From assembly GCA_947448375.1 (NCBI GenBank), contig CANFMY010000006.1, positions 1 through 37,749 of the forward strand: a stretch of DNA of 37,749 nucleotides, in the 5' to 3' direction. The notes beneath the pieces are model-generated. The model made no database searches and had not been told where the DNA came from. It was given only the letters and a program-made list of their open reading frames with translations. Each line of letters opens with the position of its first letter. Position 1 is the stretch's first letter. A program made the position numbers and the translations under genes. The stretch is from Comamonadaceae bacterium (GTDB lineage Bacteria > Pseudomonadota > Gammaproteobacteria > Burkholderiales > Burkholderiaceae_C). This document shows positions 437 through 5,769 of this stretch, one piece after another.

Positions 437-2479
437 TTACTTCCCGTAGAGGTAGTTAGGCAACCACAAGGTGAGCTGGGGCCAGATGTACATCAGCACC
501 ATGCACACGATCACGATCAGCATGTAAGGCATCATGCCGGCGAAGATCTGGTTGATGGTCACATGCGGTGGCGATACCCCCTTGAGGTAGAACGCCGACA
601 TGGCCACCGGAGGCGAGAGGAACGCTGCCTGCAGGTTGACGAACACCAGCACCCCCCACAGCATGGGATCGATCTGGAAGTGGGCCAGCAGCGGCAGGAA
701 GATGGGCACGAAGATCACGATGATCTCGGTCCATTCCAGCGGCCAGCCCAGCACAAAGATGATGGCCTGTGAGAGCAGCATGAACTGAATGGGGCTCAGG
801 TTGAGCGCCATCACCCACTCCTCCACCAGTCGCTGGCCACCCAGGATGGCAAACACGGCGGAGAACAGGGCCGAGCCCACGAACAGCCAGCACACCATGG
901 AGGTGGTCTTGGCAGTCAGATACACCGCTTCCTTGATGCGTTCAAAGTTCAGCCCGCCGGAAGCCCAGGCCATGAGGAAGGCGCCCGTTGCTCCCACGGC
1001 GGCCGACTCGGTGGCCGTCGTGATGCCCAGCAGGATCACCCCCAGCACGACCAGGGTCAGCACGCCCAGGGGCATGACCGATCGCACCAGCATGTCCAGA
1101 ATTTCGTACTGCTCGGCATCAAAGCCGCGGTAGTACCACAGGAGCAAGCCCAGGACGAACACGCAGGTGATGGCAAAGCCGCTGTAAAAGCTTTCGGGCA
1201 CGGGTTCGGTGCGCGGTGCGTTGGACGTGTCGCCGTCCCCCAGGGCTTGCAGGGGCGCATCCTCTTCAGCGCCGGGGGGGGCTTTGACCCCTTCGCTACC
1301 GGGGGGCTCTTGCACACCTGCGGAGGATTCTGCGCCAGGAGGTTCTTGCACACCGTTGCTGGCACCGGGGGGCTCTTGCACCCCGCCCGAGGCACCCGGG
1401 GGCTCTTTCACGCCACCCGAAGCGCCAGGGGGTTCTTGCACACCCGCGGCGCCAGGAGGTTCCTGCACGCCATTGCCGGATCCGGGGGGTTCCTGCACGC
1501 CCGTGCGCTCGGTGGTGGCGGTGGCCGCCCCCGAGGCGGCGGCGCTCGCGCTCACCGCGGTGTCGGCCGCGCGGTTATCAGCCTGCGAATAAATCACCAC
1601 GTACCACCAGGCAGCGCCCAGCGTGACCGCCGCCATGATGACCGGCACCAGACTCATGAGCAAACTCTTGACAAGTTTGCCCCAGCTCAAGCCCAGCTGG
1701 GCACCGCCGGCGCTCAGCGCGCGCGCGGGCGACAGCACAGCGGTCAGCAAGGCCGGCAACATGCGCGGCGAATACCGATCGGCAACATGTTGCACCCAGG
1801 GCGAGACCGCAGCTCGCAATTGCTCCGGGGGCAGCTTGGGCGCCACCTTGGGGTCGATCAGCACCCAGCCGATGACGTAAATCAGGTACAGCAAGGCCAG
1901 GAAGAAGCCCGGAAACATGGCCGCTGCGTACAGCTTGACCACCGATTGCCCGGCCACGGCCGCGTAGACGATGATCATCACCGAAGGCGGAATCAGAATG
2001 CCCAGGGTGCCCCCGGCGGTGATCACGCCGGCAGCCAGGCGTGTGTCATAGCCGGCGTTGAGCATGGGGCGCATGGCAATCACGCCCATGAGCACCACCA
2101 CCGCGCCCACCAGGCCGCTGGCGATGCCCCAGAAGGTGCAAATCACCAGCGTGGTGACGGCCAGAGAGCCGGGCAGCCGGCGGAAGGCCAGCTGCACGCT
2201 GTGGAACATCTTGTCCACCAGGGCGCCGCGTTCCATCACATAGCCCATCAGCACAAAGAGCGGGATGGACAGCAGCGTGTCGTTGGTCATCGCCCCAAAG
2301 GTGCGCTGCACCATCAGGTTGAAGATCTTGTTGTCGAACCAGGGTTGCGACGGATCGTAGAAGGTGGAGAAGCCAAACACCATGCCCAGACCCATGAGGG
2401 TGAAGGCGGTGGGAAAGCCCATCATGATGACCACCACGATGAGGCCGAGCATCAGCAGGCCGAGTGCGGGATCGCTCAT
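437..2479 (-). CDS. dctM: TRAP transporter large permease (DctM family) with a repeat-bearing loop
   Basis: This is the ion-coupled translocating subunit of a tripartite ATP-independent periplasmic transporter. At 680 aa it is much longer than a typical 420-450 aa DctM. The N-terminal half (about 1-300) and C-terminal part (about 435-680) are hydrophobic multi-pass regions with family-like stretches such as GGTLGILIPPSVMIIVYA and ITTATESAAVGATGA. Between them is a polar loop of roughly 130 residues that contains eight copies of a GVQEPPG-type repeat (residues 327-405). Large TRAP subunits with an extended central loop are known; this repeat is not something I recognise. The start overlaps dctQ by 4 nt (2476-2479), so the two permease genes are translationally coupled. 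The substrate cannot be read from the sequence; the associated binding protein resembles the TakP group, which points to a carboxylate. Confidence 0.9.
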   Translation of the reverse strand: MSDPALGLLMLGLIVVVIMMGFPTAFTLMGLGMVFGFSTFYDPSQPWFDNKIFNLMVQRTFGAMTNDTLLSIPLFVLMGYVMERGALVDKMFHSVQLAFRRLPGSLAVTTLVICTFWGIASGLVGAVVVLMGVIAMRPMLNAGYDTRLAAGVITAGGTLGILIPPSVMIIVYAAVAGQSVVKLYAAAMFPGFFLALLYLIYVIGWVLIDPKVAPKLPPEQLRAAVSPWVQHVADRYSPRMLPALLTAVLSPARALSAGGAQLGLSWGKLVKSLLMSLVPVIMAAVTLGAAWWYVVIYSQADNRAADTAVSASAAASGAATATTERTGVQEPPGSGNGVQEPPGAAGVQEPPGASGGVKEPPGASGGVQEPPGASNGVQEPPGAESSAGVQEPPGSEGVKAPPGAEEDAPLQALGDGDTSNAPRTEPVPESFYSGFAITCVFVLGLLLWYYRGFDAEQYEILDMLVRSVMPLGVLTLVVLGVILLGITTATESAAVGATGAFLMAWASGGLNFERIKEAVYLTAKTTSMVCWLFVGSALFSAVFAILGGQRLVEEWVMALNLSPIQFMLLSQAIIFVLGWPLEWTEIIVIFVPIFLPLLAHFQIDPMLWGVLVFVNLQAAFLSPPVAMSAFYLKGVSPPHVTINQIFAGMMPYMLIVIVCMVLMYIWPQLTLWLPNYLYGK
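1270..1501 (-). repeat. Imperfect tandem repeat of about 30 bp encoding GVQEPPG(A/S)xx
   Basis: Eight in-frame units lie inside dctM: GVQEPPG six times, GVKEPPG once and GVKAPPG once, separated by linkers of 2-5 Ala, Ser, Gly, Asn or Glu residues. On the plus strand they appear as recurring GGGGGNTCTTGCAC-like blocks. Unit length varies (about 27-36 bp), always in multiples of three. Confidence 0.9.
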
Positions 2480-3135
2480 GCGTGGCCTCCTTTCGCGCGC
2501 TGGTGGGCCGACTCTTCAATGGACTTGGCGTTGGCAATGGCTTGCTGGCGCGCCTCGTCGTCCACGTAGGTGCTGCTCGAGAGTTGCTGTTCGACCACGT
2601 CGATCTCGTCGGCGTCCTTGAGGCGGGGTGTCCACTCACCTGTGCGGATGCACACGGCGCATCGCAGGATTTCGGCCAATCCCTGGAGCAGCACGATCAG
2701 GCCGGCCATCGGGATCACGGCTTTGAACGGATACAAGGGCAGCGGGTCCGCGTTGAAGGTCTGCTCACGGATGGCCCAGGAATCGGCGGCATAGGTCCAG
2801 CCGGCCCAGGTCAGGGCGATCACGCCCGGCATGAAGAACAGCACGTACAGCACGAGGTCCAGCGTGGCCTGGGTGCGAGGCTTGGCGCTGCCATAGAAAA
2901 AATCCCCGCGCACATGGCCGTCCTGACACAGGGTGTAGGCGCCGCCCATCATGAACAGGGTGCCATAAATCATGTTGCTGGCATCAAAGATCCAGGCGGT
3001 GGGGGCGTTGAGCGCATAACGTTTGAAAACTTCGGCCACGACCAGCAGCATCAGCACAACGATGAGCCAGGCAAATGCCTTGCCCACCGCCATGCTGATG
3101 CGGTCAGCCGCATGGAGCAGGGATTGGGTGTTCAT
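2476..3135 (-). CDS. dctQ: TRAP transporter small permease (DctQ family)
   Basis: This 219-residue protein has the four hydrophobic segments expected of DctQ, at about 15-40, 50-70, 90-120 and 130-165. Characteristic stretches are FAWLIVVLMLLVVAEVFKRY, then MIYGTLFMMGGAYTL with GHVRGDFF. DctQ partners DctM to form the membrane component of the TRAP transporter. The C-terminal 50 residues form a charged tail, longer than in short DctQ proteins, which is seen in permeases paired with large DctM subunits. Its stop overlaps the dctM start (ATGA). An intrinsic terminator lies just upstream, between it and dctP, so its expression probably depends on read-through. Confidence 0.88.
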   Translation of the reverse strand: MNTQSLLHAADRISMAVGKAFAWLIVVLMLLVVAEVFKRYALNAPTAWIFDASNMIYGTLFMMGGAYTLCQDGHVRGDFFYGSAKPRTQATLDLVLYVLFFMPGVIALTWAGWTYAADSWAIREQTFNADPLPLYPFKAVIPMAGLIVLLQGLAEILRCAVCIRTGEWTPRLKDADEIDVVEQQLSSSTYVDDEARQQAIANAKSIEESAHQRAKGGHA

Positions 3136-3206: not shown

Positions 3207-4316
3207 TTAGGCCTTTTTCTTCGCGAAGTAGAAATCATAGGCCATCTTGAAGTTGACCATGTAGTCGCTTTGCCACTGGCCGGCGCGCTGGGCGTACACG
3301 CGCTGCGAATCCATCACGCGCTTGAAGAACGGGTTCTCGGCGGCCTTCTTCTCCGAGACTTTGTCCCAGGCTTCAAGTTGCGCCCGCAGGATGGCGTCGG
3401 GCGTCTTGTAGAACTTGATACCCTGCTTCTTCATCTCCTCGTAATCCTTGGAGTTGCGGTCGATGGCTTTCCAGCTCATCTCCGCGGAGCTGGCCTGCAC
3501 CGAGTAATCGATGATCGACTTGAGTTCAGTGGGCAGGGTGTTGTACTTGGTCTTGTTGAACAGGATTTCGAACTGTTCGCCGCTCTGGTGGAAGCTTTGC
3601 AGCATGCAGTTCTTGACCACATCGGGAAAGCCCAGCACGCGGTCGGAAGAGGCGTTGTTGAATTCGGCCGCGTCGATCAGACCGCGATCCAGCGCGGGCA
3701 CGATCTCGCCACCCGGCAGCGGGTTGACCGACACACCCAGCTCATTGAAGATGTCCACGGCCAGTCCCACCGTGCGGTACTTCAGACCTTTGAGGTCACC
3801 CACCTTGGCGATGGGCTTTTTGAACCAGCCCAGCGGCTGGGTGGGCATTGGGCCGTAGACCAGAGACACCACGTCGATGTTGAGGGACTTGTAGATTTCT
3901 TCCAGGATGGCCTTGCCGCCACCATAGTTGTGCCACGACAGCACCATGTTGGGGTCCATGCCGAACGCCGGGCCAGAGCCCCACAGCGCCAGCGCGGTGT
4001 TCTTGCCGTAGTGATAGGCCAGCACGCCGTGACCACCGTCCAGGGTGCCTTTGTTGACCGCGTCGAGCAGCTGGAAGGCGGGAACCACGGCGCCGGCAGG
4101 CAGCACTTCGATCTTGAGGCGACCGCTGGCCATGTCATTGACCTTCTTGGCGAAATCGTTGGCGTACTCGTGGAAGATGTCCTTGGCCGGCCAGGTGCTC
4201 TGGAAGCGGAAAGTGACGGTATCGGCGCGCGACACCATGGGGGCGCTCATGGCGCCAGCGGCAACGGCAGCGCCTTTGAGCAGGTTACGGCGGCGGGGGG
4301 TTTTGGACTCGGTCAT
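3207..4316 (-). CDS. dctP: TRAP transporter substrate-binding protein (DctP family), Tat-exported
   Basis: This is the periplasmic solute receptor of the TRAP system, 369 aa, usual length for the family. The N-terminus has a twin-arginine signal (PRRRNLLKG, then the hydrophobic AAVAAGAMSA), so it is probably exported folded. The mature protein has the DctP/TAXI-like fold signatures LKGLKYRTVGLAVDIFNELG (about 170-190) and PLPGGEIVPALDRGLIDAAE (about 198-217). These include the conserved arginine that in characterised DctP proteins binds a substrate carboxylate. The sequence resembles the TakP group of 2-oxo-acid receptors, but the substrate is not determinable here. AGGAGA lies 5-10 nt before the ATG. 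It is the first gene of the dctPQM operon and is separated from dctQM by a strong terminator. Confidence 0.92.
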   Translation of the reverse strand: MTESKTPRRRNLLKGAAVAAGAMSAPMVSRADTVTFRFQSTWPAKDIFHEYANDFAKKVNDMASGRLKIEVLPAGAVVPAFQLLDAVNKGTLDGGHGVLAYHYGKNTALALWGSGPAFGMDPNMVLSWHNYGGGKAILEEIYKSLNIDVVSLVYGPMPTQPLGWFKKPIAKVGDLKGLKYRTVGLAVDIFNELGVSVNPLPGGEIVPALDRGLIDAAEFNNASSDRVLGFPDVVKNCMLQSFHQSGEQFEILFNKTKYNTLPTELKSIIDYSVQASSAEMSWKAIDRNSKDYEEMKKQGIKFYKTPDAILRAQLEAWDKVSEKKAAENPFFKRVMDSQRVYAQRAGQWQSDYMVNFKMAYDFYFAKKKA

Positions 4317-4333
4317 GCGTTCTCCTGGTAATG

Positions 4334-4356
4334 TGTCTAAGACAATTGGTCGACAA
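4334..4356. promoter_or_regulatory. Dyads upstream of dctP, possible regulator site
   Basis: TGTCTAAGACA (an odd-centred dyad, 4334-4344) is followed by TTGGTCGACAA (4346-4356), 18-40 nt upstream of the dctP start. GTCTAAGAC and TTGTCGACCAA-like half-sites resemble GntR-type operators in general form. No regulator gene is adjacent, so the assignment is tentative. Confidence 0.3.
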
Positions 4357-4532
4357 ACACTGGATTCTTGCTTTTTTGCGAATTTGGTACAGAGGGTTTT
4401 TACCTACTTCCGGGCTATCGCCCGTGCGCTGAGCCTGTCGGGAAAATTCGGCACAATGCCACAACCCTTCAACCTTTAAGGGGTGCGCCAGCTGTTTCGT
4501 GTGCGTGCCTCGCGGAATTCAGGAACAGTGCC

Positions 4533-5333
4533 ATGCAGCGACGTGATTTTTTCCAACACTCTGCCGTGGTTGGCAGCACGGCCCTGGCCAGCGGCTTGGC
4601 CGGCTGTGCCACCGCCGGTGGTGGCGCCCACGCGTCATCGCGCATGCCTTTCACGGTGCCGCAGGTGGTGCTGCCGGTGGTGGGCAGTGACGAGGTCTTT
4701 CCCGTTCGACGCATTTACTGCATTGGCCGCAACTATGCAGCGCATGCGCGCGAAATGGGGTCGGACCCGACCCGCGAGCCGCCCTTTTTCTTTCAGAAGC
4801 CGACTGACGCCATCCAGTTTGTGCCCACCGGCACGGTGGCCGATCATCCCTACCCGCCGCTGACCAAAAACTACCACTATGAGGCCGAATTGGTGGCTGT
4901 GCTGGGGCGCGGTGGACGCAACATCCCCGTGGACAAGGCCCTGGACCTGGTGTGGGGCTACACCCTGGGCTTGGACATGACCCGGCGCGATTTGCAGCGC
5001 TTCATGGGCGACCAGAAAAAACCCTGGGAGATCGGCAAGAGCTTTGACCAGAGCGCACCCATCGGGGCCGTGCACAAGGTGGCGCAGACGGGTCATTTCA
5101 CCCAGGGGGCGATCTGGCTGAAGGTCAACGGCCAGGTCAAGCAGCAGGCGGATCTCAAGCAGATGATCTGGTCGGTGGCCGAGCAAATCAGCAAGCTCTC
5201 CGAGGCTTTCGAGCTGTTTCCAGGCGACATCATCTACTCTGGCACCCCCGAGAATGTGGGTCCGGTGGTGCGCGGTGATGTGATCGAGATGCACATCGAC
5301 GGCCTGCCCAACCTGAGCGTGCGCATTGTTTGA
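4533..5333 (+). CDS. Fumarylacetoacetate hydrolase (FAH)-family protein with Tat/lipoprotein-like signal
   Basis: The start ATG at 4533 (not the track start at 4368) has AGGA 9 nt upstream and gives 266 aa. The FAH domain covers about residues 58-265. It shows GRNYAAHA (65-72), the acidic metal ligands E117 and E119 in YEAELVAVLG, D148 in LGLDMTRRDLQ, the lysine in KPWEIGKSFDQ, and the closing SGTPENVGPV. The family hydrolyses or isomerises C-C bonds in 2-oxo/acyl-pyruvate-type substrates such as fumarylpyruvate and 2-hydroxyhepta-2,4-diene-dioate. The oddity is the N-terminus: MQRRDFF, a hydrophobic stretch, then GLAGC (21-25). This fits a twin-arginine signal and also a lipobox, whereas FAH enzymes are usually cytosolic. 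It is followed closely by a rhodanese gene. Confidence 0.85.
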   Translation: MQRRDFFQHSAVVGSTALASGLAGCATAGGGAHASSRMPFTVPQVVLPVVGSDEVFPVRRIYCIGRNYAAHAREMGSDPTREPPFFFQKPTDAIQFVPTGTVADHPYPPLTKNYHYEAELVAVLGRGGRNIPVDKALDLVWGYTLGLDMTRRDLQRFMGDQKKPWEIGKSFDQSAPIGAVHKVAQTGHFTQGAIWLKVNGQVKQQADLKQMIWSVAEQISKLSEAFELFPGDIIYSGTPENVGPVVRGDVIEMHIDGLPNLSVRIV

Positions 5334-5349
5334 AGGGGGCAACGTGGTG

Positions 5350-5769
5350 ATGAGTCAACGTGCTTTGTCACAGCCCGAGCCCGCCGAGGGCTACGCGGGG
5401 GATGTGTCGCCGCAACTGGCGTGGGACTGGGTGCAATCGGGCCGCGCTGTCCTGGTGGATGTGCGCACGGACGCCGAGCGCGAGTGGGTGGGCTTTGTGC
5501 CCGGTGCCGTGGCCCTGGCCTGGAAGCAGTGGCCCGGCATGGCCATGAACCCCGAATTCGAAACGCAGATCCCGACCCTGCGGGACAAGCCGCTGCTGAT
5601 GCTGTGCCGCAGTGGCGTGCGCTCCATCGCCGCGGCCAAGCGGGCCACCGAACTGGGCGCCACGGCCTACAACATCCTGGAGGGCTTCGAGGGCGATCCG
5701 GACGCACAGGCACACCGGTCCTTGAGCGGTGGCTGGAAGCTGCGCGGACTGCCCTGGCGGCAGAATTGA
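5350..5769 (+). CDS. Rhodanese-like domain protein
   Basis: A single rhodanese domain of 139 aa. The start at ATG 5350 (GTG 5344 is an alternative) has a purine-rich GAAGGGGG at 5332-5339. The active-site loop is CRSGVRS with the nucleophilic Cys at residue 86, preceded by VLVDVRTDAEREWVGFVPGA, the usual CH2A-type motif. Rhodaneses carry a persulfide on this Cys and transfer sulfane sulfur; the specific acceptor is not identifiable. The gene begins 16 nt after the FAH-family stop, so the two are probably co-transcribed. The FAH gene may be exported while this protein has no signal peptide, so they need not act together. Confidence 0.9.
   Translation: MSQRALSQPEPAEGYAGDVSPQLAWDWVQSGRAVLVDVRTDAEREWVGFVPGAVALAWKQWPGMAMNPEFETQIPTLRDKPLLMLCRSGVRSIAAAKRATELGATAYNILEGFEGDPDAQAHRSLSGGWKLRGLPWRQN

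Follow-up and report, generated by a model that had tools for sequence, protein, structure and literature searches.

FAH enzymes carry out intracellular steps in the breakdown of aromatic compounds and keto acids, and normally cut small keto acids with the release of pyruvate. In the family member FAHD1, the catalytic dyad consists of His30 and Glu33, and the metal ligands are E71, E73, and D102 (PMC8398924, PMC7116474). A protein listed as fumarylacetoacetate hydrolase has been recorded at trace level in the Ruegeria exoproteome (PMC5839243), and the literature searched, which lay largely outside subscription journals and gives no proof of novelty, yielded no account of an exported FAH enzyme. 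On the side of uptake, the solute receptor TakP of R. sphaeroides binds pyruvate and the cation through Tyr100, Gln156, Arg177, and Glu214, with Trp215 taking part via its main chain (PMC1839085).

Here, we analyze a stretch of 37,749 nucleotides from a Comamonadaceae bacterium (contig CANFMY010000006.1; hereafter the window), which encodes an FAH-family enzyme preceded by a putative export leader. The reading we favor, with a probability of roughly 0.6, is that this protein is an exported, Tat-carried, lipid-anchored acylpyruvase that releases pyruvate in the periplasm, where the neighboring importer takes the product up. The features of the gene are as follows.

4533..5333, + strand: FAH-family enzyme with Tat leader, 266 aa plus stop, starting at ATG 4533
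4521..4524, + strand: Shine-Dalgarno-like AGGA, 8 nt 5' of ATG 4533
4533..4604, + strand: twin-arginine leader, residues 1–24, with RR at residues 3–4 (4539–4544)
4605..4607, + strand: lipobox Cys25 (LAGC), predicted to be lipidated after cleavage by signal peptidase II (LspA is present in the genome)
4713..5327, + strand: FAH catalytic domain (PF01557), residues 61–265, E = 1.6e-53

In translation, residues 1–25 (MQRRDFFQHSAVVGSTALASGLAGC) comprise the MQRRDFF twin-arginine leader, a hydrophobic stretch, and the lipobox LAGC. The sequence-only reading had described exactly this order ahead of an FAH domain, and both its content and its coordinates are correct. The leader matches the Pfam TAT_signal model weakly (14.1 bits, below the cut-off of 22.7), a short and variable model by which leaders are often missed; because of this weak match, the case for the leader is built on conservation and not on one model score. 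Searches of the window genome recover both TatC and LspA. A promoter and terminator scan of positions 4250–5400 found nothing.

The leader is conserved among close relatives. Eighty homologues from GTDB genomes, and more from related genomes, were each read back to their start, and removal of duplicates left 91 close relatives with domain identities of 75–92%. Among these, the leader is of the RR type in 72, of the KR type in 17, and absent in 2, and the cleavage region is a lipobox in 62 and an ordinary cleavage region in 27. The comparison of homologues that the sequence-only reading had proposed as a check thus bears it out, 89 of 91 having a leader. When a subset of the clade is aligned (43 rows), R occupies position 4 throughout, whereas position 3 has R in 36 rows and K in 7, and Cys25 is kept in 28. 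The set also includes 15 relatives that are more distant: 14 have no leader, and the single one flagged as having it, L107, reflects an over-long start choice. Leaderless relatives begin about 21 residues ahead of the FAH domain.

In trees built from the domain alone, all leader-bearing sequences group as a single clade (support 100/99), apart from the leaderless cytosolic relatives, and the result is the same with or without the plasmid and P. aeruginosa fumarylpyruvate hydrolases. Two leaderless members (L063 and L086) are nested inside this clade; inspection of their upstream sequence in other frames revealed no leader, and on the tree these absences look like losses. On the tree, the lipobox label requires 11 changes to or from an ordinary cleavage site, at least 6 of which are forced by well-supported branches, while the RR/KR leader is retained. 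For example, a Cys-to-Ala or similar change separates the two members of sister pairs including L098/L099 and L097/L100, with RR retained in both. Given these changes in the cleavage site and the retention of RR, export appears to be the feature that is conserved and the lipid anchor the one that varies; an anchor is likely for the window protein, and not universal in the clade. The export signal itself is well supported by sequence, and export of the window enzyme is, in our view, highly probable.

Pooled dN/dS is 0.105 for the leader and 0.043 for the enzyme body, both rough values given that dS is saturated in several pairs. On these estimates, the leader codons are under purifying selection that is looser than in the body, as is usual for export signals. 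Replacement of RR by KR (e.g. L020, L022, L023, L026, L031, L033, L034, L047, L050, L055, L060, and L075) is found on several separate branches, and the KR leaders may use Tat more weakly or allow Sec. Sampling of 274 genomes from the class turned up no other close copy, and the gene is therefore patchy in distribution.

The FAH domain is complete and carries its metal ligands, as first read from the sequence. PF01557 scores 182 bits against the enzyme, compared with a curated cut-off of 23.9, and H71, E74, E117, E119, D148, K169, and T238 align with H30, E33, E71, E73, D102, K123, and the GTP-loop Thr of FAHD1. Across 54 sequences, H71, E74, E117, E119, and K169 are invariant, and D148 is kept in more than 90%. 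A structure predicted on the basis of 54 sequences has a mean pLDDT of 89, and its low-confidence regions fall mainly within the leader. Its best structural match is 6j5y, the P. aeruginosa fumarylpyruvate hydrolase with Mn2+ and pyruvate (TM 0.96 on target length, 56% identity), which is also the best match by sequence; the next solved structures are 4maq, a putative fumarylpyruvate hydrolase from Burkholderia, and then FAHD1. An acylpyruvase-type activity is likely for the enzyme.

Three other readings of this gene deserve attention. One is that the leader is a start-site artefact and that translation begins near Met38, a residue that is indeed present in the window protein. However, just 2 of the 54 sequences aligned have Met38, and the sequence upstream of its codon (ATG 4644) has no Shine-Dalgarno comparable to the AGGA of ATG 4533. 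Of 89 homologues, 78 have a Shine-Dalgarno ahead of the leader Met under a loose pattern and 68 under a strict one, whereas a control window gives 4 of 89. The sequence-only reading would have been undone by homologues lacking the leader together with a start near residue 38; with the leader conserved as described above, this does not hold, and Met38 is ruled out as the translation start, such that we give an artefact almost no credence. A leader that is real but weak, with most of the enzyme retained in the cytoplasm to act as an additional fumarylpyruvate hydrolase, gains from the 17 KR leaders, the two leaderless members, and the low TAT_signal score. Against it, the leader features are kept across wide divergence, and the genomic context of the clade differs from that of cytosolic fumarylpyruvate hydrolases. 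Specifically, the nearest leaderless relatives belong to gentisate operons that also encode gentisate dioxygenase and maleylacetoacetate isomerase, and among 21 leaderless relatives gentisate dioxygenase is nearby in 6 and maleylpyruvate isomerase in 7; by contrast, neither gene is near the enzyme in any of the 91 leader-clade loci (some with short flanks), and gentisate-operon membership was rejected on this ground. The window genome, a 3.0 Mb draft, has eleven other places with an FAH domain, and no such leader is present in those genes whose starts were inspected, including the closest paralogue (contig C26). This leaderless paralogue adjoins a maleylpyruvate/maleylacetoacetate-isomerase-like gene, so a gentisate step, if present, needs no leader enzyme, and a mostly cytoplasmic role for the window enzyme is quite improbable.

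The last reading accepts export and changes the chemistry, i.e. the main reaction would be oxaloacetate decarboxylation, as in FAHD1, or hydrolysis of another beta-keto acid, and not acylpyruvate hydrolysis. The conserved dyad and metal ligands fit this, and FAHD1 performs both acylpyruvate hydrolysis and oxaloacetate decarboxylation (PMC7116474). However, oxaloacetate decarboxylation is described as uncommon in prokaryotic members (PMC7116474), and the closest relatives of the window enzyme are fumarylpyruvate hydrolases, which makes this an unlikely main activity.

The favored reading, periplasmic release of pyruvate next to an importer, draws also on the neighboring genes, which are transcribed divergently from the enzyme gene.

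3207..4316, - strand: DctP, divergent TRAP receptor of TakP (alpha-keto-acid) type, which carries an RRR leader of its own (structure matches, residue alignment)
2476..3135, - strand: DctQ, small TRAP membrane subunit (family match)
437..2479, - strand: DctM, large membrane subunit of the TRAP transporter, containing a linker of VQEPPGA repeats (family match)

The best matches of the window DctP are the keto-acid-binding protein 7ug8 and TakP 2hzk, and in alignment Tyr100, Gln156, Arg177, and Glu214 of TakP are identical, with Trp215 replaced by Phe and Glu240 by Gln. DctP orthologues (77–87% identical) occupy the same divergent position in 8 of the 91 relatives, within a block that also conserves metallo-beta-lactamase/rhodanese and pantothenate kinase neighbors, and in three other relatives a Peripla_BP_6-type (ABC-type) solute receptor fills the divergent slot. 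Because the TRAP genes belong to one conserved, inherited block, the pairing is not a repeated independent association. The arrangement suggests uptake of the product beside its formation, and we regard coupling of the enzyme to the TakP-type importer as tentative, at a little under even odds.

Several further neighbors were considered. TRAP genes near the enzyme in Variovorax (L043/L048) and in L020/L031 were rejected as repeats of the association, their DctP not being a TakP-like orthologue. Adjacency of TctC (Bug) receptors was likewise set aside: the 3.0 Mb genome holds 111 matches to such solute receptors, and their frequency near the gene is no higher than genome density predicts, i.e. 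close to chance and hence uninformative. Neighboring genes with Tat leaders were also discarded as pointers to an exported pathway, being mostly solute receptors and weak hints; given the RRR leader of the window DctP, Tat may serve the receptor as well as the enzyme. In the two Polaromonas loci (L033 and L034), an RR-leader protein that by eye resembles a dienelactone-hydrolase-type enzyme lies just 3' of the FAH gene. A single-domain rhodanese (5350–5766, + strand) lies 3' of the enzyme gene in the window, and a metallo-beta-lactamase/rhodanese family gene is present at the loci of 15 relatives, downstream of the enzyme in 14. The window DctM (680 aa) carries its run of VQEPPGA-like repeats between membrane parts, a repeat kind also seen in L097, a relative of the same genus, and in L100, where it is reduced.

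From these features we infer a series of steps that covers export, lipidation, substrate class, periplasmic chemistry, and TRAP coupling. The enzyme would fold and load Mg2+ or Mn2+ in the cytoplasm, and cross the inner membrane in its folded state via Tat, a route that would suit a metal enzyme needing to be loaded before export. Signal peptidase II (LspA) would then cut before Cys25, leaving the lipidated enzyme anchored and facing the periplasm. There, it would cleave (or decarboxylate) small 2,4-dioxo acids arriving from outside into pyruvate and a second acid, and the neighboring uptake system, in the window the divergent TakP-type TRAP transporter, would import the products.

An export signal along the whole branch probably means that the enzyme works outside the inner membrane in water and soil bacteria, often with a lipid anchor. 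That the clade as a whole cleaves C–C bonds of dioxo acids outside the cytoplasm and couples this to a TRAP importer dedicated to keto acids is rather more doubtful. If true, it would represent a step of periplasmic organic-acid catabolism, undescribed in the literature searched, in Burkholderiales of freshwater and soil as well as in some Alphaproteobacteria; i.e. some of these bacteria would cleave such acids beyond the inner membrane and import the products. The findings also correct annotation, as the leader-clade proteins resemble gentisate-pathway enzymes by sequence yet lack the gentisate gene context.

Compared with known systems, the window enzyme shares a common fold and catalytic residues with the fumarylpyruvate hydrolase 6j5y at about 56% identity, but 6j5y has no leader, is cytosolic, and has relatives of its type in gentisate operons. 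FAHD1 has the catalytic dyad and metal ligands in common with it, yet is mitochondrial, about 40% identical, and has no bacterial export signal. To our knowledge no FAH-family member is known among Tat-dependent lipoproteins, with which the enzyme shares an RR motif, a weakly hydrophobic stretch, and a lipobox on a folded, metal-binding enzyme. Finally, the window DctP keeps the Tyr, Gln, Arg, and Glu with which TakP binds pyruvate, differs from TakP at Trp215 and Glu240, replaced by Phe and Gln, and a keto acid is its predicted ligand.
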